Position numbers and translations under genes: made by a program. Shown here in pieces: positions 13,301-56,143 of a stretch of DNA of 64,000 nt. Positions within the stretch are counted from its first letter, which is position 1, and the number at the start of each line of letters is the position of its first letter. The stretch comes from Siniperca chuatsi (taxonomy: Eukaryota; Chordata; Actinopteri; Centrarchiformes; Sinipercidae), in contig NC_058044.1 in assembly GCF_020085105.1 (NCBI RefSeq), positions 24,301,206 to 24,365,205 of the forward strand, given 5' to 3'. The notes beneath the pieces are model-generated. The model searched no databases and was not told the origin of the DNA. It saw nothing but the letters and a program-made list of their open reading frames with translations.

Positions 13301-16300
13301 ATGTAGACTCCTTTTTATACACTGATGTGTTCTTCTCTTTGATTTTACAGAACCCTTGAGGTTTGGAGGCAATGACTCTGTTTTGGATTTCTTCCTGGGA
13401 TCGGTAAGGGTTTGTTTGCTTGCGTGTGTATGTACTGTGTGTTCACCATATGTGTTTCATATAGTAACTTCTCCTTTCTACAGGGCTACGTGGATCGTTC
13501 TCCCGTCTTCCTTGGTTTCTACACTCGTGGATCCCTGAATTTGCCGTGCTTGAATACACCTCTGTTGTACCTCGCTGGAATCCTCACCATCCTCTTCCTC
13601 AGTCTCATCATGGTGGTCCGTAGGTCAGTTAGGATACAACTTCAAAAGAACCAAAAGTTTTAATAGCCATTTTCCTTGCATCTTAAAGAAAGCGTCTGTA
13701 TTAGATCTGCTCATCTGTATCCATCTCTGATAGAATGACAGTTGGCTACAAGCACACCTGGATGCTGGGGAAGCGTTACAGTACGAATGTGAGCTATAAG
13801 ATCTTTTGTGGTTGGGACTTCACCATCCAGGACCCTTCTGCTGCTACTCTCAAACACAGCTTCATCAGGAATGATATGAAGGTGAATGGACGCACACATA
13901 GTACCTGCATGCATGATAACGTGGTCACTAGCCAAATGCTGGTACATTTTGAGAGCAGACTTACTGGCTGTTTCACATATATAATGTTGGGTGACAAATT
14001 AAAGGAAAAACCTGACTCAACCGAAGGCTGTAGCATATTGTTCACATCATCAAACTATTCAGTGACCCCTCATGTTCTGTAAGGACACATCTGCATTGCT
14101 TATGTTTCTCCACTCATCTATTCAAGTTTGTCCTTTAATTTGTCTGTTAATTCTCATTTTTAGAATCAAACCTGGAATTTCATGAACAAAGTTACATTTT
14201 ACATATTTGCAGTTCTACATCTTTATTTACAGCAAATAGTTTTCTACTTGTTACTTGCATTAACAGAAGCTGATAAAAAATGGTATCCACCAGCCAACAA
14301 ATAGCTTCCCACCCTGCTTCCAAAACAGACACACTCACTCACATTCATGCACACACAGTAGATATACTGTATGTCTGCCTACACAGACACAAGGTGGTAA
14401 ATGTCAGTGAAAAGCAGTGTCTACCTCCATAATGTAAGAAGGACAGACAGAGGCAACACTGCTTGAGGCAGATGAGGAAATTTAGCGTGTCCCAGGGTGC
14501 CTGCTTTCAATTTTAGAAATCAGTGGTTGAAAGTGAATCAGCTCATAAGTGAAATATAAATGTTCAAAACTCACCGTAATGAGAAACTAAAATACTGTTC
14601 TTCTTATCAAGCATTTTCTCTGGGCTCCTGCCTTTAGGGAAAAAGTTTAGACAACTCCCCATTGCATGTCTACAATATGTATAATGTAGATATACTGTAT
14701 GATTCTTGTTTATGTGTGTGTATACTGCAGTTCTAATGTTTTGATAGAGTTAAAACAGTGATGTAGATGGTCACAGTAGAAAGCTTGTCCTACATGTCTT
14801 TCTGTTGGTCCTCAGCTGTTCCTGGAGGAGCAGAGTTTCTCCCTGCGCAAGGCTCAGAGGACACTTAGTCAGCGGGTGCTTCTCTTCCTGCTCAGGTTCA
14901 TCCTCAACCTGCTCGTTCTGTCTCTGCTGGGTGGAGCCTTCTACCTTATCTACTTCGCCACAGAAATATCACTGAAGGAGGTAAGACTTTGATGCTGAAC
15001 ATCTGTTTTTTTACGGTATGTCCTGCATTTGTTGCCTTGATTTTCACATCTGACACCCCCTGACTGTGTTTCTCAGAGTGTGCACTCCTTTTCTGGTTTT
15101 CGTCTGGTCCTCCATTACCTCCCTCCTATCATCCTCACCTTTGTCAACTTGTTCCTCCCTGAAATGTTCCGCAAGATCTCATCTTTCGAAGACTACTCTT
15201 TCACCACGCAGGTCAATGTCACGCTTGTGAGGTAACGTGCACAGGGACATAAACACAGGATAATCTATGTACACTCACTCACACACACACACACACACAC
15301 ACACACCTGCATGGATTCACTCTGGCTTTTCTTCAGGATCATCTTCTTGAAACTGGCCTCACTGGGGATCTACTTATTCTTCGTCTTCTCAACAACAGAA
15401 CATCAGCATGTGAGTTGAGAGTGAGATTTATGTTCCAAGGTCCTACAGACTGAGCTCTAGTGAGACAAAGTAATGCTATCTGCCTTTGATTCAGACTTTC
15501 AGGACTGATATGTGATGTCGATGTAGTAGATGGGGTTTCTTTAAACCCCCATTCCCTTTTCATGTGTGTGTTTCTTTTCTGTATTCTTTCCAGCACAGGG
15601 ATAACACGTTTGGTAGAGAGATGTACAAGTTGTGCATCTTCAACTTCCTCGCCACTTTCTGCTACACCTTTCTCTTCAACTATCCCATGAAGTGGGTTTG
15701 CTTGAGATTAACAGTCTCTTTCTTTCTTAGTCATTGTTGTGGTTTGAATGGAAAGATCAATGCAATGGATGTCTTTCTTGAGTAAATTCCAAAACAGCTT
15801 GGCTAATCTATAGAAAGATTGAAGCTCAGTTATATTACGTAGTAAAGATTCATGAACTTTCTGTGCAAACTATTTTTCCTCTGTCTGACAGGTTGGTGCA
15901 GGAGAAGTACCCCTCATCCTTGCTGGCCCGGTTGTTGGGGAAACAGCACTTCCTGATCCCTTTCAATGTGTTGGATCTGGTGTACAGTCAGACAGTGTCC
16001 TGGGTGGGAGTCTACTACTGCCCTCTGCTGCCTCTGATAGGAACTGTCACACTGACGGCCATGTTCTACATCAAAAAGGTTGTCTGGAACATGAGAGTTA
16101 TGGATCATCTTGAGCTGTTCAGCTATCTCTCTCTGTCCCTCTTTGTGTCTCTTAATGTTTAAATCCAGTTCAACATCCTGTACTGGCAGGAAAGTCATAA
16201 AATGTCCTAGAACAATGAGCTAAAAAGATGAATCAAATAATACTACTACTTCAATATATAAAAAACTAAACCAATCTGACAAAGGCATTCAGATAATGAA

Positions 16301-19065: not shown

Positions 19066-22000
19066 ATGAAGAATCTACAGACTCTAAATTTGTTGCCAAT
19101 TTTGGGTGAGTTAGTCATTTTTTACTTAAAATGGCGACATGAATAAATCATTCAGTGAACTGATGTTCTTACTGAAATGTGTTGTTGGTTTTTGTTTCAG
19201 CTCTGGCATGTTTGTTCATCAAGATGAGTAAGTTTGTTAATATTAGGCAGTAATGCTCAAACCCCTGTGTAATGAACTGTACCTGCATATCTGCCTCTGA
19301 TGTTAGCGGACCTCATCCTAGCCCTCATGTTTTTGTTCTACACTTCTGTTTGTTAAATTGTAAATTCTATTTTTTTTTTTAAAAGTAAGTTTGTTAAAGT
19401 GGTGATAAAGATATGGAACCCAGTTTGCTGAGAGATCTTTTGTTTGTCGTTTTCAGAACTTTCGTTTTCAGAACTTCAGATATTTGCTGTGTTATTTACT
19501 GTAGTGGCAGGTGAAGAGCGCTATTAATTCAGAAGCTTGTCATTCTTTGATCTCATAACATGAGACACAACAAGAGTCACACATGACACAACAAAATAAT
19601 GTGGTCCCTGAACTCATGTTCTCTTTAAAACTTGTTATGGGTAAATGTCTTCACCCAAACTCTCAGTGTTTCATGTCTTTCTTCAGGTGGGTCGATCTCT
19701 CTTCGCCCAGTGCTGACTGGTCCTGACATGGCCTACCTCGGCTTGAGGGTGGCTTTCCAGTGTATTGCACCTGACTCCTCTCTGCCAGTCACCTATGAGC
19801 TGATGGGGGACGGTGGGGTCCTGGTCGCCACAGGCACCAGTCTCCGAGGGGACCAACCTGTATCATTCTCCCTCAAGGTCGCTGCCACATCAGAGGGGTC
19901 ATACCACTGCAAGGCAACAGCAGGAGGAAGCACAGGAGTCAGCAACAGCATCAAGCTGAGTGTAGTCAGTAAGTGAAAGACACACACAAAACATAGAAAG
20001 CATTCATCTTGTTAGAGCTTTAAAGTCAGGCAATCATTCCCAAACTTGACCTCTTCCTCTCCTCCCCAACCATCTATCATTCCCTAACTTCTAGCTCCAG
20101 CATCAAACACCAGAGTGACTTCTGAACCCTTCCCCCCAGTCGCATACGAGGGGTCACGCATCGTGCTAAGCTGCAACGTCACAAAGGGCTCCCACCTTTC
20201 CTACACCTGGTTTTTCAACAAGAAGGAAGTAACATCTTCAACCTCTCCCTTCCTCCACCTCACTGGGAACAACCTAGTGATGGGGACGGTGATTCCAGAG
20301 CATGCGGGGTACTATTCTTGCATGGCTGGGTCCACGGTGCAGGACATGAAGAGGTATTCCAGCAGCTCAGAGGTCCAGGTGACAGTCAAAGGTATGTGTC
20401 AACAAGTGTAGCAGAGTACATTGAAGACTTACAAGAAGGTGGAGGCACTGCACTGTGGCAGTGTGGCTCTAGAGAGGGCAATGCTGGTCGTTGGTAGCTC
20501 CACCACTTTGGTCCAGACTGAAATATCTCAATAACTGACACCCGGTTGACTTTTCTGGTTTCGCGAGAATGGCTCAAAAACTATTTGTTGGATTGCCATG
20601 TTGGATTACCCACTAGTTAAAAAACAACTACAGTATAAATTCTTTGTAAAATCCCTAATTGTTACCCCCTTATTCTATAACTATAACCAGTATCTACATA
20701 TATGTATTGGTACGTACTGTACTGGTACACTGTTAGGACAAACGATTACACTGTACGTTGCGGGCTGTAATCTAAAGCGTTACCCAAATTCTTGTACCAT
20801 TCATGTTTTTTTAGTAATCCCTTAACTTTTTATATAGTGCCAGGTAAAATGTTTAATTTGTTCAACACTATAGTTTATGACTAATTACCAGCAAACTAAT
20901 GACATTCCCATCAGCCTTAGCTGGACTCTGTGTTTAGTTACCAAATGTTAGCATGCTAAAACACTAAACTAAGATGGTGACCATGTTAAAGATTGTACCT
21001 GCTAAACATGAGCATGTCAGAATTGAAATCGTGAGCATGCTCAAAACACAGTACAGCCTCACACAGCTGCTAGCATGGCTGTAGACTCTTAGTCTTGTTA
21101 GTGGTTTAAATGGAAACACGTTCACACTAAGATATACTGAAACATTTAGAAATTAAAGGGTTTCATCCAGCTACAAGAAATTAACTAAAAGGGGCCTTTA
21201 GACCTAAGATGTAGCATCAGACTTTTTTGAAAATCCACTATATGGCCAAATTTATGTGGACACTCTCATTCCAAAATCATGGGCATTAAAATGTTGCCAG
21301 AACAGCCTCGACTTGGGAGGGATTTCTGCAAGATTTTGGAACCAGACTGCAGGAATTTACTTCCTATTCATCGTTGATGCTGGGCGATGATGTCTGGCTC
21401 GCAGTCTGTGTTCCAATTAATCCCAACGGTGTTGACTGGGGTTGAGGTCAGGGCTAATCACCACACCAAACTGAGAAAACCATGACTTTATGGACCTGGC
21501 TTTGTGCTCGGGGATATTGTCATGTTGAAGAGGAAAGGGCAGTTCCTAAACTGTTGCTGCAAAGTTGGAAGCACACTATAGTCTGAAATATCATTGTATA
21601 CTGTAGCATTAAGAGTTATCTTAATTGGAGGTAACTAACTCAAAATAGCTCCAGACCAAATGTACACAATCATCATCCACATACTTTTGACCATATACTC
21701 CTGATTCATGCACCTGTCTGAAATGTTTTCACTACAGCCTAACATGTACTGTATTGTCCATGTTCCCATTGTCTCCCCTCTTCATTTCCACCACCAGTCT
21801 ATGTTTCAAAACCAAGGATCTCTTTCTCCATCTCCAAAGAGGGAGCCAGTTACCGTGGCAACGTGACCTGCTGGTCAACACGAGGGAGTCCTCCGGTAAA
21901 CTTCTCTCTTTCACTAGATGACAAGGAAGTGGGATCCGTCACAGCAACTGAATCCCTCGCTGCCTGGTTCCCCGTCGCCATGGTACCCGGGCTGGACATG

Positions 22001-24672
22001 GGTGTGGCTCGATGTCGGGTGAATACTGAGGTGCAGGAGTTGATGAGTGAGCCTGTGACTCTGGAAGTGGGTATGAGCTACACAGATATGTCAAGGAAAT
22101 GTGTCTCTGTGATTGACTAACTTTAGTTCTGCTCTTTGATAATCTTCTCTCGCTCTCTTCCCTTCTGTTTGTCCAGTCCCAGTTGGAGGTGATGTGAAAG
22201 TGGAAGTTGAATATCTCTACAGAGCTGACTCCAAAATGGCGGTCGCTAGGCTTAGCTGTCAAGTCAGCAGAGGAACTTTCCCTTACATCTCCTGGCTCTT
22301 AAATGACTCTGTCCTTCCCTCTGAGACGCATGTGGACTCCCATATTCAGCCCGTCCTGTCTCACTATGCCCTAGCTGACCAACGACGAACCCTTGTTCTG
22401 GCCAAGCTCGGCCAAGAGGAGTCTGGGTATTACCGCTGCAGGGCCAGGAACAACTACGATGATTCTGGGCCCTGGGTGGAGAGTACAGCTGTGCTGGTCC
22501 AAGTCACAGGTCAAAAGATCAAGATTAGGTGTTGAATAAAAGTAATCTTAAAGTAATAGTTTGACATTTTGGGGTATATGCTTATTCGCTTGCTTCCCGA
22601 GAGTTAGATGATTAGATTGATACCACTCTCATCTCATCTCTGTACGTTAAATATGAAGCTACCGCCAGCAGCCGTTAGCTGAGCTTAGCATAAAGAGTAG
22701 AAACAGGGGGAAACAGCTAGCCTGGCTCTGTCTAAAGGTAGCAAACTCTGCCTACTAGCACCTCTAAAGCTCACTAATTAACACATTTTATTGCGTTTGT
22801 TTAATCCATACAAAAGCAAAGTGTAAAAAGCAATTTTTCACAAGGGGTTATGTGCCGGGGTCTGTGTCTTGGCCAGGTGCAATGACGTACTGGAGTTTTG
22901 TTGTCACTGTGAGGTTGCCAGGCAACCAGCGGAAACTCCAGGAAGTTGTAGCTCCTGGCCAAGAAATAGTCTCTGTAAAATAAAATGTAGAATAAGCATA
23001 TTTCACAAAGTGTTTAACTATTCCTTTAACAGACTTCTTTTTAATCCACACTCGTCTTAACATTTCACATGTGCCTTTTTATACATCTTTTCTTTGTGTG
23101 GGGTCTCTGTGCTCTTTACCACATCACACTTTTTACTCTTGATCAGACAGCTTAACTCCATGTCTTGTGCAAAAACTTCCATTAAAACACCATTAAGTAA
23201 AAAGCACATATCGTATATTTAAATGTCTTACATGCTGCCTCAGTCTGTAATACTTGACTGGCTTTGTCCCTTTTCTTCCATAGAGGTTTTCATGACCACC
23301 ACAGAGGTCATTAGCATAGCGTTCTGCTGTGTCCTTCTCGTGACTTTGGCAGTGGGTGTAGGCTGTGTGTACAAGATGTCAGACCACAAGCAAGGTGTGT
23401 GTGCCCGTGTTGTGTGAGGGAGAAATTAATTGACTGGAACTGAATTTTTTATGAAATGTTCTTATGTCGCCGCCTCTCATTTCTTTCACAGCTCGCGCCC
23501 ACATTGCCACAACAAAGTAAGCTTTAACTTTATGGACCTTGGAAAGTTTATTGTTTTGTAACTCAAATCAACCTGTTCAAAAGTGTTTGTGCCTTCCAGT
23601 CGCAGTTCTGATGCACTTCATCTGTCTGCACCCATGTCCCAGTCAGGAGGCAGACAGGCCAATACTTCCTCTACAGACAGTGATGTTCAGTATCAGGTAA
23701 TCAGGCCTGCAAAACACCACTGTGAATCAGTGAAACATGACATACTATGCACGCTTTACTTTACAGGTTCCTTAGTTTCTTATAATTCCTTAGAAAGGAA
23801 CTGATATGTAACTGTAAATTCATAGTAAGGCTCCTGGGAAAGACTATGTGATTTGGTACTAATGATAGGAAAAATGGACACAGTGTTTAATTGGTACATA
23901 CAACTCAGTTGGTAATGCTTCATTTTATGGGTCTGTATTTTCCTACTAAATTACCAATAATTCCCTAGGACGTTTTCTGGAAAGAACTATTTAGTACTAA
24001 TTATAGAGAAAATAGGAATTTCCTTGAAAGAACTACTCCATTTACAATAAATATTAATTTAATATTTTTGACATTTCTGCATTTTCATTGACCAAAAGAC
24101 TCTCAGGGTAACACTAGCAATTAATTGGAATCAATCAATGGAAAATGAATAGAACATTGTGTCTATTTTCACTGTTATTAGTACAAATTGAAATAGTTTT
24201 CTATATTCAATTATTTTCTACCTTAACCTAGAGAGTTTTTAAGTCAGAACACAGCAGGCCTGCACAATATGCAAAAAAAAAAGGTCTACAGGCAAGCATA
24301 CAATTCGAAATATGTGAAAGTTGGTTTTTAATGGAGCAGTTCTTATAAGGAAAGTCCTCAGGAAGTCCAACAACTGCTTATAGTGTAAATTGAACACAAA
24401 TAACTTAATTCATATCTGTCTCAGATGTTTGCCTCTGTTTTCTCTATAACAGTACCAAATTACAATATGCATACCAGGACACTTCTAAGAAATTATTAGG
24501 AAATTGCGGACCTGTAAAATAAAGTATTACCTATTGTCCTCCAGAAACCTTTTATCTTCATGCTGAAATTAAGTGATTGTTTTGTTTTTAATCATATCTG
24601 AAAACAATGTGAACCAGGTATAAACAAGAAAATATCATGACTGTTCTCTCTCTGTTTTAGACCGCAGTGTGA
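19066..24672 (+). CDS. Four-Ig-domain type I membrane protein A (FCRL/PECAM-like), in the C17orf99/IL-40 position
   Basis: Ten exons join in frame: 19066-19105, 19201-19227, 19687-19968, 20095-20391, 21798-22070, 22177-22509, 23284-23394, 23492-23516, 23600-23696, 24661-24672, giving 498 residues. The order is a signal peptide split over two exons (1-22, the second only 27 nt), Ig1 (23-116), Ig2 (117-215), Ig3 (216-306), Ig4 (307-417), a membrane segment around 426-448 (IAFCCVLLVTLAVGVGCVY) and a 50-residue tail ending QYQTAV. Each Ig domain is one phase-1 exon with two core cysteines (GSYHCKA, GYYSCMA, GVARCRV, GYYRCRA endings). Ig3 (RGSPPVNFSL) looks FCRL-like. Human C17orf99 occupies this place but is secreted with two Ig domains. 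The protein is probably an immune receptor, with its ligand unknown. Its name in fish databases cannot be given from sequence. Confidence 0.82.
20440..21110 (-). repeat. Dispersed teleost repeat in two pieces (20440-20605 and 20870-21110)
   Basis: The first piece has GTGGCTCTAGAGAGGGCAAT and ACTGAAATATCTCAATAACT. Inverted counterparts occur at 26340-26490 (TTGTTGAAATACTTCAGT, CATTGCCATGCATAGAGCCA). The second piece has the GTTAGCATGCTAAAACACTA and GCTGCTAGCATGGCTGTAGA segments often found beside it. About 260 bp of unrecognised sequence separate the pieces. All of it lies within intron 4 of Ig gene A. Confidence 0.55.
21235..21705. mobile_element. Degenerate Tc1-like DNA transposon remnant
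   Basis: It begins CTATATGGCCAAATTTATGT and ends CATACTTTTGACCATATA, which are inverted degenerate ends. In between are stretches recalled from a common fish Tc1-like element in antisense, such as GGGGTTGAGGTCAGGGCT, TTTATGGACCTGGCTTTGTG and GCATTAAGAGTT. It is far shorter than an intact element of about 1.2 to 1.6 kb and no transposase frame survives. It sits in intron 4 of Ig gene A. Confidence 0.6.
22549..23031. mobile_element. Foldback MITE (GCTAGCCTGGCTCTG family), copy 2
   Basis: It starts AATAGTTTGACATTTTGGGG and ends GTTTAACTATTCCTTTAACA, with GGAAACAGCTAGCCTGGCTC and AGCACCTCTAAAGCTCACTA inside. It matches the copy at 16425-16991 but lacks much of that copy's right arm. It lies in intron 6 of Ig gene A. 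Confidence 0.75.
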
Positions 24673-25220
24673 CACAGGAGGAACCTGCACTTCTTCATGC
24701 AGACTGTCATTATATAATTTAAAATGCAGCTATTCATTGTTATGCAGGCACGGCAATTATGACTTTTCCTGAGCTGCGAAGTTATTTATAAGAAACTGGT
24801 GGAACGTTAAATCAAAGAGTGAGAGATTATGTTTTTCAGCAAAACTATTGTATACTGTCATGTTTTTTGCAAATTAAAATTAAAATTTTCAATGATGTTT
24901 TGTTGTTTTTTCAATTAAACCAATGAAAAAATGATGCTTGATTACACTTTCACCTCTACTTCTCAATGCATCTGACTTATGTTGTTTTGATATTCACATT
25001 TTTCAAAATATAACATAACACCATTGAGTGAATGACTTCATCTTGTGATGTTACAGAGAGGGAGGGTATGGTGGGGAGGCGTAGTGTAACACTATCAGCT
25101 ATTTGCACATGTTGTATTTTTTCACCCAAGGTGCTTCAACCCTCCATTCTAAACTGTCAAAACTCCTTCATCACACAGCGTAGCGTAATCATATTATACA
25201 GTATATAGTTTTCTTCAAGA
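24673..25220. other. Ig gene A 3' UTR and spacer to Ig gene B
   Basis: The only 548 bp between the stop codon of gene A and the start codon of gene B. ATTAAA at 24873 is the likely poly(A) signal. The rest, including a tract with GAGAGGGAGGGTATGGTGGG at 25057, has no recognised regulatory site. The tight spacing fits tandem duplication. Confidence 0.5.
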
Positions 25221-28200
25221 ATGTTTGCTTCCCTCTTTGTGGTCATTCTGGGTAAGCTAATCAACACAATCTGCACTGCAGTAAACTTTAACAGTTGAAA
25301 GCTCTTGTGAACTATTTGATTTCTTTGTCCTCTCTACAGGGTTGTGCTACTGTAGCAAGGAGAGCAGTAAGTCAGTTGTATTGTTTGAGTGTGTGTTAGT
25401 GTGTGTAGCTCATGATTCTTTCTGTTGAGTGCATTTGCAGTTTTGTTTTATTTTTGATAGGTCAGTTAATTCTGGGGCGTCCACGACTGTTTGGCCCTTC
25501 GGAGGCTTTGCTGAAAACGGCCGTAGATCTTCATTGTGAACTGGGGACCTACCCAAAGAATGAGTCTATCCTGCTGCAGTTATTCAAGTGAGTATTTGTT
25601 CACATTAAATCTAACCACTGCATTAAAGTGTAAAAGTAATGATAGAAGATCCCTCTAATTATCAACCTTTTCTAGGGAGGGTAACCGTAAAAAGTTGTTG
25701 GGCGAATACACCTACATGGACGGAGTGCTTGCATCCTTCCCCTTGGCAATCAAACATTCCCATGAAGGAAACCTGGAGTGTGTGGCCAAAGGGCAGAACA
25801 ACTCTAACATAGAGCCCACTGTCAGCAACACACACTATCTGAGGGTTGTTGGTGAGTCTCTTTATTACCAGTGATATATAGTATATAATATGCACATGGC
25901 TTCCCTGTAGCAGTAACATAGAGAATTCAGTGGCATGTATGTTTGTAAAAGCTCAACACAATGAGAAACACATTTCTCAGTGGGCATGTTATTGTACAGT
26001 GTAAGGTGTGCATCTTCAGTGGATATTGATTTATGACAGTGCGTGACATTTAGCTTGTTTTCTGTTTATGTTGTCTGTGTTACATTTATTACTATTTCAC
26101 TGATTTTGCTCTAAGCTGCCTTCTTGGCCAAGTCTCTCTTGAAAAACATCTAAGTTTAGCATTTTAGCATGATAACGTGCTAATTCACACTGTAACCAAA
26201 TACAGCTGAAGTTCATGGGATATATGTAGCAAATTTCACAACAATCTATCAAATAGTTGTCAAGATATATAACTCAAAACCAAAAATGTCCACCTTGTGG
26301 TGGCGCTAGAGTTACTGTCACGAGATCACCAATGTCAGACAGATTCATCCTCTGGGGACCATGAATTTTTGTACAACATTTCATGACAGTCCATCCAATA
26401 ATTGTTGAAATACTTCAGTGCTGGGCTGGCAGACAGACTGACTGACAGAACAACATTGCCATGCATAGAGCCACTTTGCTAGCATGGTTAAAAAAAACTG
26501 TAAAATCACGTTAGGACACCATCACAAGGTTTCTTGGTAAGTAAACTAGACTAGTTAGGAGTTGTTACGCTAATAGACATGGTCACCTGTAAAACCAAGA
26601 CAAAAAAATTATACAACAGACCATAAAAACTTGAAGAAAATGACTCTCCTTTGAAATCAGGAGCTCAACTTTAGAAATCAGTGGATCTTTATTTCCCAAT
26701 TTTTCAAATATTAATTATTGTTGGTTTGAAATAAGACCAGGATCTCAATCTGTTGCTATGTCTGTCCTGCAGAACCAGTGGAAGGTGCACACGTTGACGT
26801 CTATTCAGGACCAGTGAAGTTCTTTGAGGGGAAGACACTGGAGCTGCGCTGTCAACTTGCCGCTGGAAATCATGTCTCCTACAAGTGGCTGCTGAATGGT
26901 CGGCTTGTCTCTCAGTCTCCTCTCCACTATGTTGCAGATAACCGTCTCTTGATCAACAGGTCAGTGGAATCTCATTGAGATTGTCTCTTGACAGCTGCTA
27001 CTGCATTACTAGGTGGTTGCTATGGTGTTGTGAGCAGTTGAATGGTTTACTTGGTTATTATAAAACTTGGGCCATTTAGGGTGGTTGCCAAGTGGTTGGT
27101 GGGATGTTGCTAGGTGGTTGCAGTGGTGATTCTGGGTGGTAGGTACTGCATGGATGATAGCTTAATTGCTAATTAATAGCAGCTATTCTGCCAACAGTTT
27201 GTTGACATGTCTGTAGTTCTTTTCACCAAGTGGGAGATATCATTGGTGTCAGAAATTTCAAGAAATTACAAGTTAGAGGCTGACATGAGCGTTTTTTCCC
27301 ACTTGGCTGCTTGTAAGTATGGTTTAAACAATATGACAGGAACGCTGCATAAGAGGCAATTAGCTTAGCTTAGCATAAAGACATGGGAAAGCAGCCAGCC
27401 TGGCTCTGTCCAAAGTTAAAAAATACAGCTACCAGTACCTCTAAAGCTCACTAATTAACATGTTGTAGCTATCTCATTTATTTCATTTGTAGACAAACAG
27501 AAATCTAATAATTACAATTTGTTGTTTTACGTTCATTAGAAAAACAAAGAGAGAATTGTAAATTGTTTATATGGAGAATCATAGTTATGTACTGGAACTT
27601 GCTGAAATGAAAAACAAAAGTAGTTGCACTAAAAAGACATACTAAATATCGACACGTACTAAAAATAGGTATAATGCTGGAAAGTGCAACCTTACTGCAT
27701 TTCTTGATTAAGCAAATATGACTCATGTCCCCCACCAAACATCTGTCCAACACTGTCTGAGAAAGAACTTCTTTGTAATTGAGGCCACTGAGCATGCTCA
27801 TTTTTAACTGAACAAGTAAAAGGAAAGTTACTGAAATGATTATCTGTGTCGCCCTCAGAACTACTTCTAAAGACAGCGGCTCCTACATGTGTATCGCCAC
27901 CAACCACTTCAACAAAACAGTCTTCACCGCCAACAGCTCTGAAGTTGTAATCACAGTCAAAGGTTGGCCGTCATCTGTTGTGAATAAACTCTCAGGCTCA
28001 AATTTTATAGATGTGACATGGTTTCTTTAAACAAAATAACATTCTCCTACACCCTGTTCCCTCAGGCGTGGTGTCAAACCCTGACATCTCCTTCACCGTG
28101 TTAAAAAAGGATTCCCACAGCTATTCTGCCGTGGTCACCTGTCACTCAATGAGAGGGACTCCGCCTGTCACCTTTGCACTATACAGGAACAGAACAGAAT

Positions 28201-30686
28201 TGCTTGCCAATACGACGGTTGAAGAGAGAAACGCCACATTTAAGGTTCCATTGGTCTTGGGCCAGCACTTGGGATGGCTCCAGTGCCAGGCAAACAATGG
28301 AGACCGGATCGCATACAGTAAAAGGATTCCCCTAGAAGTTGGTATGTGCATTGTTTGAAACTGCTGACATAAAACTGTGGTACACACTACCTTTTTAAAT
28401 CCATTTAAATCCATTTAAATCCGTTTGTCCATGATGTCTCTTTTCGATCCACAATATATCCAACAGTCCCGGTTGGTGGGCCTGTGATGATGCATTACGA
28501 ATATGACATTGGCGAAAACTATGCTGTGATCAGCCTGAGGTTCTACTGCAAGGTGGTGAAGGGATCTCTTCCACGGTACCAGTGGTTCCTCAACAACACC
28601 CTTCTACATGGCAGAGGAAGCTTCTACAATGTGGTCAACCAGCCTCCAGAACAGTCTAAACTCCTGCTGTCTGTAGGGAGGAGCAGCGCTGGGACGTACC
28701 ACTGTGAAGTATCAGACAGCTATGACAGCACCACCGCCATAAGCAGCAAGAGGCAGTATTTGGATAAAGAAGGTACAGTTTATCCACTACTGTTGATTTA
28801 AGTAAAAACATCCTGGTGATAGGTGGTTTCATGTCTTCTCCATCTTCCTGCTCCTCAAGTGCTGAATCGTCTCCCCGTCTTGGTGGTGGCAGTTGTGTTT
28901 GGATGTTTCACAGTCGTGCTTCTCCTGGTCTTCGTTTGTTGTTGGATCGGAGTGGTGTTCAGTGAGTTCACAATGTTTCCTGAGTCCTGTTTTTATCTGG
29001 TGTGCCTTCCTCATCATTGCTACTGTGAATTAATGTTTTTAATCTTCTTTCAGGGCGAAAGCAGTACGGACAGAAGTCTCTGTGAGTTATTTCTCTGTTT
29101 AATTCTGATACCTTGAAAAATGATGACTACATTTCCCATGAAGCTGTTTTCTTCCTCTTCTGAAGAGAACTGTGCTACTTGATCCTCAGTCAGTTCTTCT
29201 TTTTTCTTTTACTGAGGAAGAATAACATGCTGGCAGTTAATCCACCATCTGCACTTAAAAGAAACAAATGTCAGATGCTACTCCTGTGTCCCTGTTGTGT
29301 GCTATACAAGCAATACAGCATGCAAAGGTTGAAAAAAAGCAACAAATAATGTAAAATCTGGTTCATCTATAGTCTTGTTTGTTCATGGTCACACATGAAT
29401 TAACATAGTAATGATATACCATATGTTCAAACGCTACACATTACACCTTGCAACAGGAACAATACCTAGTTTTCTTATAGCTCCAAATAAGGACTCTTGT
29501 TACATATTAAAGAATCACTTAAAAACAACTGGTCACAGTTTCACAATAAAGATGATGAATAGTGACAGCAGATGTCCAGCTGTCTTAAAACAGGATCATT
29601 AATACTTGCTTAGTCATTCCTTGGCTTGAATATGAAATGTATTGCAGTGTCAGCTGTTCTCTCGTAACACTGTCCTCTCAGTGAGCAGTTAAACATGTAA
29701 ATATGTGTGTTGGGGGGAAATGTAATCAATAAAAAAAATGAGAGACTATAGATTATTAGACTTTTTTTGACATTTTAATTGTTTAACTGTTAACAATTAT
29801 GTTTTTAGTGACTTTTATCTTACTACACGATGATGTAAATGCTTAATGCCCAGGATTTATTTTTCTGGTGGACAAATATTCAATTTCTCTTGCTTTATCA
29901 TCTTTTTGCCAGAAGAAGTCACATTTAAATTTGATGAGTCAAAAGAAATCTCTGTATCCGTCTTTAAAACTTCATCATGTTTAATTTGGGTGTAATTGTA
30001 ACACTCCTCATCAGGTTGTTGAAAGCTCAACATTCCCAGAAACAACACTGCCAATGACCTTGGAGTGCTCATTAGTAGCTACAGCACTATGTGTAGTTAG
30101 GCCTGTATTACATTCATTTGATGGTGTGGTTTACAGCTTTTTAGATTAGCTTAAGCTGCACCTTTAACAAACTTGGCCTGCCTCAAGACAGCTGTGTATG
30201 TGACAACTGGCCTTCTCTCCTCTCAGGTGGAGCTTGGAGATGGAGCGAATGGCAGCTGCATATGAGGGCGAGCTGGTTAGTCAATATTTCTGTATCACCA
30301 TCATTCAAAGGCTGTTCACTTCACCCATTCATTCACTCTCATTCATGATCATGAACATTCATGATCACACACTGTTTTATCTCCATTAGGATAAATACTT
30401 AACTGTGATGCATAGCTCTTCAAGTATCTCTCCTTTCAGGATTTGTCAGAGTACGATGAGGATGCAGATGTGGTGAAGACAGCCAGAAGTGGTGAATTTG
30501 ATCAGGTGAGATCCAATAAATTCATGAAATCAATCAACCAATCAGTTACTTAAACATGAAGCAAGCAGTCAAACTCTCCTGCTCATCTGTCTGTTCTCTC
30601 CTCAGGCATCTAACGCCTCTGTAGATGAATGGTCCCAAATTAAGGGACCAGTTGATCAACAAGATGAACCAGTTGAGGAGTCCTGA
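25221..30686 (+). CDS. Four-Ig-domain type I membrane protein B (FCRL/PECAM-like), tandem paralogue of A
   Basis: Thirteen exons join in frame: 25221-25251, 25340-25366, 25461-25587, 25676-25851, 26773-26959, 27859-27962, 28066-28341, 28467-28772, 28860-28961, 29054-29081, 30227-30275, 30440-30505, 30606-30686, giving 519 residues. The signal peptide (1-19, MFASLFVVILGLC..) again spans two exons with a 27-nt second exon. Ig1 is 20-120, Ig2 120-217, Ig3 217-309, Ig4 309-411, the membrane segment lies about 415-441 (LVVAVVFGCFTVVLLLVFVC), and the acidic tail is about 75 residues. Ig1 and Ig2 are each cut by an intron, unlike in gene A. Shared features with A are the RGTPPVTFAL stretch of Ig3 and the VPVGG linker before Ig4. 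The tail has SEYDEDADVV but no canonical ITIM or ITAM. The gene is probably an immune receptor of unknown ligand. Confidence 0.82.
26170..26490 (+). repeat. Dispersed teleost repeat (inverted relative to 20440-20605)
   Basis: It contains GAAGTTCATGGGATATATGT, CCACCTTGTGGTGGCGCTAG, CAGTCCATCCAATAATTGTT and CATTGCCATGCATAGAGCCA, a set found together in many teleost introns. It lies in intron 4 of Ig gene B. Confidence 0.55.
27000..27160. repeat. Degenerate minisatellite with GGTGGTTGC units
   Basis: Imperfect repeats of a unit like CTAGGTGGTTGCTATGGTG recur about six times (for example 27010-27030, 27078-27100, 27108-27125). It lies in intron 5 of Ig gene B. Confidence 0.6.
27356..27500. mobile_element. 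Foldback MITE (GCTAGCCTGGCTCTG family), partial copy 3
   Basis: Only one arm is present: TTAGCTTAGCTTAGCATAAA, CAGCCTGGCTCTGTCCAAAG and CTCTAAAGCTCACTAATTAA. It lies in intron 5 of Ig gene B. Confidence 0.65.
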
Positions 30687-31015
30687 AGGTTCAAACTGTT
30701 TGCTCTGTAAACAGAAATCAGAAGTACCTTATTGATCCCCGAGGGGAAACTCTTTGTTGTGGCTAAATAAACAGCTCCTCATAATGATCTGTGCTGTCAC
30801 GTCTTTTCTGAGTGTGAATGATTAGATTATCTATCTCTAAAGTATTTGTGGTAAAATAATGACAGCAGCAGTCACACACGTGATCATCTTTCCGGGTTCC
30901 TAAGCGGTCAACTCCGCCCCTCTGACGCGCAGCAGGACAGCGCAGCCCCTCTGGGTGGCTCTCGTCTTCGTCAAGTGGAGCAGTACGGCAGAAAGTGGTA
31001 GTCGTTTCGAGAGAC
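30687..31015 (+). promoter_or_regulatory. syngr2: Ig gene B 3' end and SYNGR2 promoter region
   Basis: An AATAAA at 30766-30771 should end Ig gene B. From 30890 the base composition turns GC- and CpG-rich, with a CTCCGCCCC GC box at about 30911 and CTGACGCGCAGC shortly after, then the SYNGR2 start codon at 31016. The whole gap between stop and start is only 329 bp. Confidence 0.55.
30718..30766 (-). mobile_element. LINE 3'-tail relic inside the Ig gene B 3' UTR
   Basis: The plus strand reads CAGAAGTACCTTATTGATCC then CCGAGGGGAAACT. Its complement is AGTTTCCCCTCGGGGATCAA, the same tail as the LINE at 560-1119. It lies 32 bases after the stop codon of gene B and directly before AATAAA at 30766, so it is probably part of the mature 3' UTR. 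Confidence 0.65.
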
Positions 31016-31332
31016 ATGGAGGAGACGGGCGGTGCAAGTGCGTACGGGGCTTCGCTCGCAGGTGGAGGCTTCGACTTCTACAAGTTTGTCCGACAACCTC
31101 AAACCATCGTGCGGCTGCTCAGCTGGGTGAGTGGATGTAGGAGTTTATGTTTTAACAATGCGTGTCAGGTCCAGAAGAGACACGAATGCCATGTAACACG
31201 GTCTGTGAGCAGGTGCGCCTGGCCCGGAGCCCGTAAACCGCCTCTGCGGATAATATATCTTTATTTGTGTTGGCCAGAACAACAGGCTACTATGTGCAGC
31301 GTCTCCACGGGGCGTCATGTTGCACGCAGCTG

Positions 31333-31379
<47 letters not shown>

Positions 31380-32250
31380 TGAGACAGAGAGAGAGACAGC
31401 AGCTCGGCGACAGCACAGGTCAACACTGCTGTTGTCAGAGGACAAAAGAAAGAAAAGTGTCAGACGCACTGAGACGTCCACTTCTGGAAGCAAAACACCT
31501 AAGTAAACTAAATCAACTAAATGTAACATGTATGATCATCTTCATCTGTTAGTAGTCTCTGTAGTCTCTAACACAACAGCTGTACAATTACCTAAAAGAA
31601 GATTACAGTCATGTAACGTCTAAAGCCACATTATAAGAAATTGCCTTCTTCTACAATGTTTCATGTTTTTAAATGGATAAAATATTATAATATTATTAGA
31701 CGTTATCATAAAGAGGTTACGCAGACAAATGGTGAGAGGGGAATTCAAATACCAGGGAAAGTTGGTAGATGCTGATCACCTGTTGCTAGGCAAATCTTGT
31801 GGCACAGATTTGTTTTGGTCGTTAGGACACTGATCTGGAAAGTCCAAAAGGAACTTTTGGATCCTCATTTAGAGGGAGTTTTATTGGACACAACTGCTTT
31901 CATGTCCTTACAGACTCATATCTGGGATCACCGAGACAACGGTTGATTTATATTTACATGGTTCATGAAGCGAAAACTATTTGTTAGGCCTTCAGCTCAT
32001 GCACATGCAGGGTGAGGAAAACACAGCTTCACCTGGATAGTGTAGCGTATCCAGCTTGGTAGATGAGGACTGAGGACAGAATGTGCCCTCAACTGCTGAG
32101 TGTTTGGGAAGCTGTGTGTGTGTGTGAGAGAGAGAGAGATTATGTGTGTGTCACTGGTAAACAGGGGCTGATAAGGCAGGTAAGGTGATACCTCTCCCCC
32201 ATTGAACCTCTCTTTTACTCATGGTGAATGTGTGCCACTGATCTCCCTCT

Positions 32251-32309
<59 letters not shown>

Positions 32310-35300
32310 TTAGTGCAGCTGTGCTCAACTCATCTCAAATTCACACTGGCTAGATCAACCTGTATCTCTGGTGATCTTAATATTACTTAAGTGAGCCAGC
32401 ACCTAAGGATAGGATTGTTCGCTCTGTAACTGCCTACAGATCCCATAATGCACCACACCTGCTCCTAGAACAAGGAAAGGCTGCATACAGTGACTCTTGG
32501 TCATTTAAGGTGTTGAATCACATCACTGTACCTTCTCTGAAATGCCAGAATGATGAAAATCAGTTCGTATTCTTTAGTGACCCTGACTGTTAAATACTTC
32601 ATTGAAACAGTATATTTCCAGCATATTAATGCTAAATAATGAGCAACAGGCCCCAAAAGAATACAATGTATGTACATATGGGACATTTGGGTATGTTTTT
32701 GACATCTGTCACTCAACACACAAACACCTTCCATCTGTCCAATTATGTACAGACACATCCGACTGCTCCACTAACGATTCCTCTGTCTCGCTTTTGTCTT
32801 GTGTTTTGGAACTCCCCGCATTCACTTCCCTAATGTCTCTGTCTTCTGTAGTTTTCGGTACTTTTTGTCTCAGCCCATCAGCGAGATTGTGGCCTATTTT
32901 TCTCTCTGCCCTCTCACCTCATCTCATTATGAGTGTTGTTAGGGAGTCGGTGGCATCTCTGGAGTCACATGGCAGGCAGCTGCACTCAGAAGTAGGTCAC
33001 ATGGTTAGGTGGGTAACCAGAGCAGACAGCAACAGACCACGGGACGGACAGAGGGACCAGGCAGCAGTTTGCAATCGACACTTTATAAACACACGATGAG
33101 CACAAGAGCTGGGGGGTGGGGGTATCTCAGCAATAGTCAGCAATAAGAAAAGAGACTGTTTATGATGACACAGTAACATCACTATGTTTTATTAATAATT
33201 ACATGTTTTGGCCAATTTGTTAGTTGTTTGTTTCTAGAAGTAGAAATGGATACAGGTTCTTGTGATTTTCTTTGTTATGTCATTTTAGTCTGATGAATTT
33301 AGCCTAGACATCTCTTCTGGAAATATTGCTTTCAGTAGACACAAGCTAAACCTAAGGATGTTTGCTGATACTGCCACGTGATGATGAGTTGTACTCTTTC
33401 TTGTCGGGGCGTTCAAGAAACTCCTGATATTTGAAAGTTTGCTGCTTAACAGTAAGCTCTATAATGAAAAAAACCCAGTTGTTTATTTTCTTCTGTGGTT
33501 GATTTTGTGACAGCAGAGCTCCTGATTGCAGTGCTTTTTGGAAGCAGGCCCAAATACCAGATGTCCAGAGTTTCTATGAATGCACCACCAAGAAAGTGTT
33601 TTCCAAATGGTCCCTGTTCTTGAATGAATTTTCATAAGACAAAGATATAGTGGATTACATATTTTTAAGTCTATGCTAGTAGATTTTCATACTGTACTTG
33701 ATCTGAAACTTAACTGAAACCTAGGAAAGGTAGGAAATCAGTCTCAAAACGTTTAACTTTGCTTCTTAAAATGGTCAGCAGTAATGTAAAGTATGCAATG
33801 TGAAGCTAATGGGTTAACTTGAAAAGCCAGCGGTATGTTCCTTTTTAAAAAGACCGTTTCTTCTTGTGTCTTTGCAAATCATTGAAGGCCACCTTCTTCT
33901 TTTCTCTGTTTCAATGTAGATATTCGCCATAGTGGTGTTCGGTTGCATCACAACAGAGGGATACATCAACTCTCCCCACAGTGCCGAGGCAAAGTGCATC
34001 TTCAACCAGAATGACTCGGCATGTCATTATGCTGTTGGCATCGGGGTGATTGCCTTCCTGGCATGTGTGGGCTTCCTGGTGTTGGATGTTTACTTGCCTT
34101 TTATGAGCAACGCACAGGAAAGGAAGTATGCTGTCATGGCAGACCTGGGATTCTCAGGTGAACAGGAGCGTTAAAGCGATTTCTTTGTTTCTTTTCTTTA
34201 CTTTAAAGCTGCACTAATCAATATTTTTATATTAACATTGGATCAAATGGGGATGAACCCACAGAGAATTATCACTCTACTCTGTAGTTCACCTCAGCCC
34301 TACAGAGTGTTTTAGCTTCTTTCAGCTCATTGTTTTGGCTTTACGGCCCACAACTTTACTGTTTTGGTTCACTCTCACCGCTCTCATCAATCTCCTTTCC
34401 AGCTGCAGCAGGCAGCTGCAAATACAGAGCTAAAAGAGAGTGAATATTGGACTAACCAAAATAATGAACTCTTACTCCCTGTTTTATCTTATCTTTTATT
34501 TAAATGTCTTTTTATATTGCCCTATGTTGCTTTTATGTTTTATGTAAAGAATTGCCTTGTTGTTGAAATGTGCTATACCTGCATTGCTTAACATATGTCT
34601 GGTGGACACACAAATGAAATCTAATGTTGCTCTGTATCTCATGTTAAAATAAGTAACTGTTTGCTAACACGTTCACCATATCAACTTTATAAGGTGATAA
34701 TATGTCAGTGTTGTTTACACCTTGTTCAACTGTCCCCTATGGCCAAAAACATCAGTTAATGCTGCTTTAAAGTGACCTTGAAAGTTGAATGAGATGCCTA
34801 GATCTGAAACAAAAATGGTTATTTGCACAGAAATAATACAATTGAATGATAGTACTGAAATGTGCTTTGTGTAAAAAGTGTCCAGTGATTGGCATTTGTA
34901 GAGATAGTGGAGGGTAAACTCCCTTCTCAGGACACTCACCTTTTTATTTGTGATTTATAATAAATTAAATAAATAACTATTATATTAGTGTATTAGGTTG
35001 TTTTGAAGATGATAATTGGAAGTAGTGTAGTGATTATTAATTTATTTAGTATTTTATTTTTACCACTGCATTATTAATTGTACTCTAAGTGGTTATCTCC
35101 CCTTCTCAGTCCTTCCCTTTTAGTCTCAGCCACTGAGTAATGTGGCACAGACCGCTGCCTGTTTTTTTTTTGTTTTTTGTTTTTTTTTACATAACACAGC
35201 ATGTATCATTCATCGTTGCACACAGTAGATGATGAGTGAGCAGCAGGGTGGAGGCGGGGAGGATGACATCACAGATTTTGATTCAATTAAACATTCATCA

Positions 35301-37334
35301 GCTGTACATGACACAGTTCACAGTCAGCCATTCTTCAAGGAAACAAAGAAGTGTTAGTTTGAAAAACAGCTTGTGGTCATTTGAGCAGATGGCAAAAGGA
35401 GAGCCCTTATTATTCTTTAGATGTTGTTTTTGTTCTTTTGTATGTTTTTCACAGGAATTTACTTTTCATATCAGGGTTGTCAGCTGAGCACTTTTTTGAA
35501 ATCTTTTCATGCAGTGAAAACAATCATTTATATCTGTGTGTGTGTGTGTTTGTGCATCTGTGTCTCTGTATGTTTTCTAGGGCTGTGGACCTTCCTGTGG
35601 TTTGTGTGTTTCTGCCTGTTGGCCAGTAATTGGGGTCGCACTCATGATGTCCGCGCTGTCCCCGAGGACGCTGCACGAGCCACTGTGGCCTTCTCATTCT
35701 TCTCTATCGCCACCTGGGTGAGCGGGACTGCTGTTGTGTTCTTTTCATTGCAAACAGCTCAGATCTTAGCCTCTTTCTTTGCCACTGACCTCTGGTTTGA
35801 GTAAGAAGACTAACAAGATAATTGTTGGCCAGACAAAAGTCTACCACGTTACAGATTACTGATTACTGGTGCTATTGCTAATAAAGTTAAAGAACCATAC
35901 TGTGTTTCTACATATTTTATTTCTGAAAGAATATTATAGCTTTTTATATTGACTAATATATTCTTCCTATATATAAAAGCAAAACTTATTTGCTTTCATG
36001 CCAAGCATTAGATGAGAAGATCGATACTACTCCTGTTTGTCTGTTAAATCTGAATCTACTGGCAGGAGAAGATTAGATTAGTTTCACATATAGATTTTAT
36101 GGGGGGTTATGTGCGGGACTATTTATTGGCCAGGCGCAGTGATTTCCCCTACTCCACAACTGGTCATTTTTACAGTTTGACTTTTGTACACCACAAACAC
36201 GATATAACGTGTTAATTTAGAGGTGCTGATTGGCGGATTTTATTATCTTTGGACAGAGCCAGGGTAGCTGTTTCCCTGTTGCCAATTTTTATGCTAATCT
36301 AAGCCAACTAGCTGCAGGCTGTAGCTTCATATTCAACAGACGTTAATAAGAGTGGTGTCGATCTTCTCATCTAACTCTCGGCAAGAAAGCTAATAAGCAT
36401 ATTTCCCAAAATGTCCAAATATTCCTTTAAGGCAGCCACTGGCTTCAGTTCATACCAGTATGGTACATACATACAAATGAAGTCACATATTGTTTGTAAA
36501 AGTCCTCCAGGTTGGTGCGTTCAAGTACTGGTGGGAACCTTTGACATTTGACAGCTGCTGAACAGCAAACATTTTATTTCTAGAAACTATAATGAGGTTG
36601 ATCTCACGCAGACTTCCCATCTTATGTAACTCTTGCATTAAACATGATACAATAATAGCTAAGCAAACACCCAACATTTGCTTATTTTTTGTCTTCTGGA
36701 CTTCTGACAGCACAGCTTATAATAGCAAGGGTGTTCTTTAGATGGCTTTTAATGTGTTGGAGCTTCCCACCATCACCTGACTGCATCATTCAGAAGACTT
36801 ATCAAGGCAAACCCAACAATTTAACTGCATTACCACACATCAGTAATGTAGCGATAATGTAATGCATTGTCATTGTGATGGATTACTTGTCTTAAGCAAG
36901 TTTAATTTCACACTGGTATGAGGTGAAACCAGTTCAGTTAGCAGGTGAGAAAAATACAGAAAGTATGCTTTGGAACATCCTCAGCAATATTGTAAAGTCA
37001 GTGATTTATTGAAATACTGGAAAAGTCTTCAAAGTAACTGTAATAACCTTGACATTTTTATTTTACTACGCAGGGAATCCTGACCTACTTTGCCCTGGGT
37101 CGTTTCCGCCGTGGCGTTAATGAAGTTACAATCCCAACCTACACGGAGCCGCCACCAGATCACCACACTCCCTACCCACCAACCTATGCCCCCACCGCCT
37201 ACAACCCCACTACCTACACCCCTACCACTTACACAGCCTATCCCAGCAGTGTGCCCGACATGCACCAGCAGCCTCCCTTCACCCCGAACCCCCAGCCGCA
37301 AGGAGACGCCGGCTACCAGCCTCCCAGCTACTGA
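31016..37334 (+). CDS. syngr2: SYNGR2 (synaptogyrin-2)
   Basis: Synaptogyrin-2 (cellugyrin) is a four-pass MARVEL-domain protein of small transport vesicles in non-neuronal cells. Four exons join in frame: 31016-31126, 33920-34157, 35581-35717, 37074-37334, giving 248 residues (human 224). The N-terminus SAYGASLAGGGFDFYKFVRQ matches human AYGAAKAGGSFDLRRFLTQ. Membrane segments are IFAIVVFGCI, IGVIAFLACVGFLVLDVY, LWTFLWFVCFCLLA and VAFSFFSIATWGILTYFA. Between the first two lies a loop with CIFNQNDSACHY (human CVFNRNEDACRY). The C-terminal tail is longer than in human and rich in Pro, Thr and Tyr, with repeated YxPTxY units near residues 197-215, and ends GYQPPSY. A poly(A) signal lies at 38941 or 39609. 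Confidence 0.95.
31333..31379. repeat. (GT)n(GA)n compound microsatellite
   Basis: About ten GT units followed by about twelve GA units in SYNGR2 intron 1, close to the 5' end of the gene. Confidence 0.92.
32254..32305. repeat. (CA)n microsatellite in SYNGR2 intron 1
   Basis: About 26 uninterrupted CA units. Confidence 0.95.
34202..34771. mobile_element. MITE-like element with CTTTAAAGC inverted ends
   Basis: The left end TTTAAAGCTGCACTAATCAA is matched by the inverted right end AGTTAATGCTGCTTTAAAG. The middle (about 34460-34620) looks like unrelated inserted sequence. It lies in SYNGR2 intron 2. Confidence 0.6.
36080..36430. mobile_element. Foldback MITE (GCTAGCCTGGCTCTG family), partial copy 4
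   Basis: The right arm of the family is present: GGTTATGTGCGGGACTATTT, GACAGAGCCAGGGTAGCTGT, TCTTCATATTCAACAG-like sequence and the end AAATGTCCAAATATTCCTTT. It lies in SYNGR2 intron 3. Confidence 0.7.
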
Positions 37335-56084: not shown

Positions 56085-56143
56085 GCTATAATGATGATCA
56101 CCCCCAGTCCAAGCCTGACAGTGAGGATGAAGACGACACTTCC

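Follow-up and report, generated by a model that had tools for sequence, protein, structure and literature searches.

Two four-Ig membrane receptor genes at the interleukin-40 locus of the fish Siniperca chuatsi suggest that IL-40 descends from such a receptor

Passages in three reports describe interleukin-40 (IL-40), the product of C17orf99, as mammal-specific and as having no homology to established cytokines, or no high homology to any protein (PMC12967690, PMC10923619, PMC8566875), and in two of them its receptor is stated to be unknown (PMC12967690, PMC10923619). Among bibliographic entries, mostly of open-access literature, no report of C17orf99 in fish or among the FCRL/PECAM receptors was found, and, judged from such entries, neither was a paper treating its relatedness to FCRL or MILR1. 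The DNA analyzed here is a 64,000-nucleotide stretch of the Siniperca chuatsi genome (the window; contig NC_058044.1, positions 24,301,206 to 24,365,205), in which two adjacent genes on the same (+) strand, here called A and B, are flanked by a TMC-family gene upstream and a synaptogyrin-like gene downstream. This receptor pair at the IL-40 locus suggests, but does not prove, that IL-40 descends from such a receptor. Descent of C17orf99 from the A/B locus is the best reading, held with somewhat better than even confidence, and it is preferred because of position and domain type together. A fish locus with the same place and the same kind of domain gives IL-40 a testable origin.

Six-frame reading and a spliced open-frame model give gene A 10 coding exons (19066–24672, 498 aa) and gene B 13 coding exons (25221–30686, 519 aa). 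Each protein starts with a split signal peptide, which is followed by four immunoglobulin (Ig) domains, a single membrane segment and a tail. This agrees with the preliminary description, made from the sequence of the window, which had placed two such genes in the TMC8–SYNGR2 interval and had drawn the end of the pair at 30686, where the gene B model stops. All 21 introns (nine in A, 12 in B) are of the GT..AG type, and three of the 21 donors lack G at +5 (GTCAAA and GTAATC in A, GTACAG in B). There is no stop or frameshift in the 498 and 519 codons, the framework cysteine pair is kept in all eight Ig domains, and the two genes have in common a 27-bp signal-peptide mini-exon (signal-peptide exons of 40/27 bp in A and 31/27 bp in B) and matching exon phases. 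With their open frames, phases, cysteines, membrane segments and ordered domain similarity, these models are not products of chance. Candidate poly(A) signals are ATTAAA at 24873 for gene A and AATAAA at 30766 for gene B. The parts of the two genes, with Pfam scores and Smith-Waterman (SW) scores, are as follows.

19066..19105, + strand: gene A exon 1, start codon and first part of the signal peptide (spliced open frame, donor GTGAGT)
19201..19227, + strand: gene A exon 2, 27-bp signal-peptide mini-exon, phase 1-1 (gene model)
19687..19968, + strand: gene A Ig1, one exon, phase 1-1, Ig_C17orf99-type (PF17736 42.5 bits, cut-off 26)
20095..20391, + strand: gene A Ig2, one exon, phase 1-1, I-set-like (Ig_3 43.9 bits; in trees with DCC/contactin-2)
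21798..22070, + strand: gene A Ig3, one exon, phase 1-1 (PF17736 14.9 bits, below cut-off; sister of B Ig3, SW 142)
22177..22509, + strand: gene A Ig4, one exon, phase 1-1, I-set-like (Ig_3 35.8 bits)
23284..23394, + strand: gene A membrane segment, phase 1-1 (hydropathy 2.66, 19-residue mean from residue 426)
23492..24672, + strand: gene A cytoplasmic tail (exons 23492-23516, 23600-23696, 24661-24672; C-terminus SDVQYQTAV-stop)
25221..25366, + strand: gene B split signal peptide (exons 25221-25251 and 25340-25366, the second being the 27-bp mini-exon; gene model)
25461..25851, + strand: gene B Ig1 with a phase-2 intron inside (25461-25587, 25676-25851), very divergent (Ig_2 13.6 bits at most)
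26773..27962, + strand: gene B Ig2 with a phase-2 intron inside (26773-26959, 27859-27962), I-set-like (Ig_3 47.0 bits)
28066..28341, + strand: gene B Ig3, one exon, Ig_C17orf99-type (PF17736 40.6 bits; second of three genome matches)
28467..28772, + strand: gene B Ig4, one exon (Ig_3 27.2 bits, below the cut-off of 30; SW 107 with A Ig4)
28860..28961, + strand: gene B membrane segment (hydropathy 3.18, 19-residue mean from residue 418)
29054..30686, + strand: gene B acidic cytoplasmic tail (29054-29081, 30227-30275, 30440-30505, 30606-30686), without a consensus inhibitory motif

By their sequences A and B are collinear paralogues: BLASTP aligns them with 136 of 459 residues identical (30%, E 1e-52), and the domain scores run in order (A1-B1 50, A2-B2 128, A3-B3 142, A4-B4 107). 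Since the identity is only 30%, the pair is probably old. When the assembly of the source genome (719 Mb, 65 contigs) was searched with protein A (33 matches), the best match outside its own exons was B-Ig3 (2.9e-7) and the next locus stood at 0.002; for protein B (42 matches) A-Ig2 (8.0e-8) and A-Ig3 (1.6e-7) were best, and the next locus was a long multi-Ig frame on contig C24 (3.3e-5). Viral contigs scanned with protein A gave no relative. In gene A each Ig domain lies within a single exon, and all Ig exons and the membrane exon are of phase 1-1, so that any of them could be lost without a frame shift. Phase-2 introns cut Ig1 and Ig2 of gene B, by eye at different structural positions, and gene A has none; the difference probably arose in one line after the duplication.

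The Pfam model Ig_C17orf99 (PF17736, cut-off 26 bits; domains were scored singly) is the top model for A-Ig1 and B-Ig3, and the 42.5 bits of A-Ig1 is the highest score of any non-IL-40 domain scored in this way; A-Ig3 (14.9 bits) and B-Ig2 (13.5 bits) fall below the cut-off. The Ig_3 and I-set models lie above their cut-offs for A-Ig2, A-Ig4 and B-Ig2 and slightly under for B-Ig4. Domain trees were made from 28 rows, from 23 rows (PECAM1 D1-3 and FCRL5 D2-3 dropped) and from 29 rows (12 of 41 dropped: human and fish PECAM1 D1-4, FCRL5 D2-3 and two fish Ig exons). Ig2 and Ig4 of both proteins group with DCC and contactin-2 domains in these trees, with supports of 86/89, 95/96 and 97/98 in the 28-, 23- and 29-row trees, respectively, and Ig1 and Ig3 lie outside this I-set group in all three, among the FCRL5, PECAM1, MILR1 and IL-40 domains. 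Thus, as judged from profiles and trees, Ig1 and Ig3 of FcR/PECAM type alternate with I-set-like Ig2 and Ig4 in both proteins, and A and B are best explained as tandem type I membrane receptors of the FCRL/PECAM1/MILR1/IL-40 group. Genome-wide, PF17736 gave three matches at E<=0.001 among 22 scored candidates, namely A-Ig1 (the top match), B-Ig3 and a PECAM1 exon (C3:29027032-29027253); at this threshold the domain type is rare elsewhere in the genome.

The position of the pair can be set beside that of human C17orf99. Human read-through transcripts of C17orf99 and SYNGR2 are described, which place the two genes next to each other on a common strand (PMC7544212), and one report lists TMC8, C17orf99, SYNGR2, TK1, BIRC5 and AFMID within a single 151-kb duplication (PMC7801512). 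The fish pair is bounded by the following genes.

15516..16159, + strand: exons of the upstream TMC-family gene (PF07810 TMC, 29.8 and 73.8 bits; TMC6 and TMC8 not separated)
31016..37331 (end approximate), + strand: downstream synaptogyrin-like gene, in the SYNGR2 position (MARVEL 27.7 bits, below the cut-off of 32.8)

These flanks bear out the TMC8–SYNGR2 position and the shared strand of the preliminary description as far as the TMC family and a synaptogyrin-like gene go, and the matches do not distinguish TMC8 as such from TMC6. We take the downstream gene to be a synaptogyrin, SYNGR2; the exact human gene order around C17orf99 is likewise our assumption. The synaptogyrin-like query returned from the genome its three source pieces in the window and more distant copies elsewhere. 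Under uniform placement, the chance that one of two independent PF17736 loci would fall in this ~15-kb interval of 719 Mb is ~4e-5, and so improbable a random placement is the strongest argument for a locus shared by A/B and IL-40. The fish genes resemble IL-40 in syntenic slot and strand (the human order being partly presumed), in a signal peptide and in two domains of the Ig_C17orf99 kind. They differ in that IL-40 is a single gene for a secreted, two-domain protein without an anchor, whereas A and B are two genes for four-domain, membrane-anchored proteins.

Comparisons that start from IL-40 (presumed human sequence) lead back to gene A. Against the genome it gave five weak matches (E<=10, eight candidates), of which A-Ig1 ranked first with a weak alignment (33% over 69 residues, E 0.358) and the PECAM1 D6 exon fourth. 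The rank supports descent of IL-40 from this locus; the score by itself does not. Among 40 other domains the best partner of IL-40 D1 was A-Ig1 (score 81; the next 61), and profile comparison started from the IL-40 domain pair gave A-Ig1 51.8, the MILR1 pair 49.8 and FCRL5 D7 44.8. The 28-row tree puts IL-40 D2 with A3/B3 and PECAM1 D2 (89/85), and the 23-row tree holds a trio of A3, B3 and IL-40 D2 (73/71), which is absent from the best 29-row tree, although merely 0.13 log units worse there. The preliminary description had named a separate C17orf99 elsewhere in fish as evidence to the contrary; in this genome the search with the presumed IL-40 sequence found no convincing copy.

Several results weigh against a specific tie between IL-40 and the A/B locus. 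The 0.358 of A-Ig1 is insignificant, and the next two genome matches (0.368 and 0.41) are almost level with it. The PF17736 model also matches PECAM1, MILR1 and FCRL5, and it is therefore a marker of the whole group and not of IL-40: in whole-sequence controls it gave 242.4 bits for IL-40, 71.9 for PECAM1 and 61.3 for MILR1 (presumed sequences in all three cases), and 98.3 for an FCRL5 fragment whose letters come from PDB alignments. An Ig_C17orf99 match alone was thus rejected as proof of IL-40 orthology. When nine control domains were scored singly, the model came out on top for PECAM1 D5 (38.9 bits), MILR1 D2 (32.5) and, narrowly, MILR1 D1 (36.5 vs 35.1; MILR1 letters again presumed); for PECAM1 D2 it was on top yet below the cut-off (18.4), it was not on top for PECAM1 D4 or D6, and Ig_2 was on top in all three FCRL5 domains tested. 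The echoes of IL-40 that the preliminary description had pointed out, LPVTYELMG in Ig1 and RGSPPVNFSL in Ig3, are present in gene A, but the motif is group-wide and not peculiar to IL-40; FCRL5 holds one of the same kind (RGSPPILYWF), as presumably do PECAM1 (GTLPISYQL) and MILR1 (GSLPINYTF).

The partners of individual domains weigh in the same direction. A-Ig1 scores 109 with FCRL5 D5, 90 with D7 and 87 with D4, and IL-40 D1 comes fourth with 81; IL-40 D2 has near-equal partners in FCRL5 D9 (72), fish PECAM1 D6 (72), A3 (71) and FCRL5 D7 (70). The profile check proposed in the preliminary description came out divided, since the IL-40 pair picks A-Ig1 first, but a comparison started from A-Ig1 puts FCRL5 D7 (45.4) narrowly over the IL-40 pair (44.4). 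The best solved protein in PDB is FCRL5 for both A and B. The 29-row tree unites A1 and B1 with FCRL5 (95/95) and sets both IL-40 domains apart from them, with A3/B3, PECAM1 D5 and MILR1 (80/80); the 23-row tree makes MILR1 D1 the partner of IL-40 D1, with a support of 35/5. Approximately unbiased (AU) tests on the 23- and 29-row trees rejected neither the IL-40 groupings nor the FCRL5 groupings, and the domain trees leave the link of IL-40 to A/B open. A single-sequence structure model of A-Ig1 (predicted local distance difference test, pLDDT, 83.9) was not decisive: none of the 1825 Foldseek matches at E<=10 reached E<=0.001, and their order had a bacterial beta-glucuronidase first, CHIR-AB1 second (template modelling score, TM, 0.75) and PECAM1 D1-2 at ranks 19 and 34. 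The proposal that IL-40 came from a receptor-like ancestor is partly supported: by the slot, the two PF17736 domains and the genome rank, and not by sequence specificity, best matches or trees.

If IL-40 does descend from this locus, one of the two genes would have disappeared in the mammalian line, and the other would have shed its I-set domains and its membrane anchor, so that a secreted protein of two domains remained; the presumed direction is from receptor to cytokine. Loss of phase 1-1 exons would be frame-neutral and would yield just such a form. In its fullest version, to which we would give a little less than an even chance, fishes have retained an ancient pair of anchored receptors, of which IL-40 is a soluble remnant: its two domains are the surviving Ig1 and Ig3, and Ig2, Ig4, the anchor and one gene copy disappeared as exons dropped out without disturbing the frame. 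If that is true, the receptor of IL-40 could be the molecule that the fish receptors ancestrally bound, as a ligand or as a homophilic partner. A soluble precedent in this receptor group is the two-Ig, anchorless FcR homologue described from largemouth bass (PMC9699129). FCRL, PECAM1 and MILR1 form a candidate family in which to find IL-40's partner, and fish offers a system for studying the ancestral membrane form.

On immune or endothelial cells of the fish, the four-Ig ectodomain would bind either a ligand or itself. Neither the spliced tail of gene A nor the tail of gene B contains a consensus immunoreceptor tyrosine-based inhibitory motif (ITIM), and no activation motif (ITAM) was seen by eye in either tail. 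The C-terminus of A, SDVQYQTAV, is near the PECAM1 ITIM, but has alanine at +3; if the intron-9 donor (GTAATC) is left unspliced, the frame gives VQYQVI, a consensus ITIM, and then a stop (23600-23804). Gene A might therefore signal weakly, or through the PECAM1-like C-terminal tyrosine of SDVQY, and gene B may work through adhesion, or through its acidic tail, which has neither motif. No internal charged residue was seen by eye in either membrane segment, which makes pairing with FcR-gamma- or DAP12-like adaptors unlikely. Our best guess is that A and B are receptors that serve in ligand binding or in adhesion and signal through tyrosines to a limited extent.

The strongest competing explanation, which we regard as unlikely though well ahead of the others, is that A and B are fish FCRL genes ("FcRL5L" in a zebrafish report whose authors we take to be Akula and Hellman), that an FCRL locus lies beside SYNGR2, and that IL-40 is a later arrival or a distant cousin. 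FCRL5 is indeed the best solved protein for A (1.4e-36) and B (1.9e-28), although the PDB comparison is uneven, with PECAM1 solved for D1-D2 only at E<=1e-20 and no IL-40 chain for an IL-40 query. The grouping of A1 and B1 with FCRL5 points the same way. The best-scoring partner of B-Ig1 is FCRL5 D7 (71). For zebrafish, one pair of FcRL5L genes is described from chromosome 3 and another pair from chromosome 7, four in all (PMC4016189), and a two-exon signal peptide is described as a trait of the FcR family (PMC2413239). The same report gives the mammalian FCRL1-6 signal exons as 30/21 bp, versus 40/27 in A and 31/27 in B (PMC2413239), so that the mini-exon is of 27 and not 21 bp. Ig2 and Ig4 are I-set-like and stand apart from the FCRL5 domains in the trees, so A and B are not FCRL-type throughout; neither tail has the consensus ITIM, and human Fc receptor genes are placed on chromosome 1 (PMC13337447), unlike A and B, which occupy the IL-40 locus.

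A genome search with the FCRL5 fragment gave 60 places, led by long multi-Ig frames on contigs C24 and C7, with A-Ig1 seventh (6.5e-4). A locus near 13.08 Mb of C14 was rejected as a fish FCRL, because its exons by eye resemble another Ig-superfamily gene with a fibronectin-like stretch; this multi-Ig gene (G000:C14:13077156-13093745) has a fibronectin-like exon and the linker VPVSKP, as in FCRL5. Two clusters of short Ig exons with weak FCRL5 matches (C3:3774650-3822085 and C3:4279434-4386130) were set aside as CD22-like by eye; they are outside the three PF17736 matches.

We consider it a good deal less probable that PECAM1- or MILR1-like genes expanded independently in teleosts to give A and B, and that these reached the vicinity of SYNGR2 by chance. 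A PECAM1 gene is present on the same chromosome (G000:C3:29021297-29034347), 4.7 Mb from the window; it is taken as fish PECAM1 because the human PECAM1 domains match there in order (D1 1.6e-8, D5 4e-6, D6 4e-11, and D4 weakly, 0.13), and by eye its six Ig exons share a strand; another exon, which bears an ITIM, reads EPDVEYTEV, to which the SDVQYQTAV end of gene A is similar. Human PECAM1, whose tail we presume to carry two ITIMs, is likewise similar to SDVQY. B-Ig3 scores 95 with D6 of the fish protein, and PECAM1 D5 is itself an Ig_C17orf99-type domain. On the other hand, a chance landing in the interval has the probability of ~4e-5 given above, the four-domain alternating architecture differs from the six domains of PECAM1, and the 30% identity of A and B speaks for an old pair. 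A and B are not PECAM1 itself: fish PECAM1 is a separate gene (C3:29.02-29.03 Mb), and six Ig domains with an ITIM tail are unlike A/B. Both domains of MILR1 (allergin-1) match Ig_C17orf99 (the 36.5 and 32.5 bits above), but the best genome match of the presumed MILR1 sequence is the PECAM1 D5 exon (2.6e-4) and not A or B; three other places matched insignificantly, and this single search found no MILR1 orthologue in the genome.

That the models are mis-spliced, or that the genes are decaying remnants, is scarcely credible: the three donors without +5 G and the strong divergence of B-Ig1 would fit it, against frames open over 498 and 519 codons, eight of eight intact cysteine pairs and 27-bp mini-exons and phases that agree between A and B.

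Farther along the window lies one more feature.

within 55958-56692: exon with a Pfam Apyrase domain

This we take to be the CANT1 position. Introns of the two receptor genes each contain one copy of a 48-nt repeat (22698-22745 in A, 27376-27423 in B; 79% identical), which resembles a piece of a longer dispersed element.

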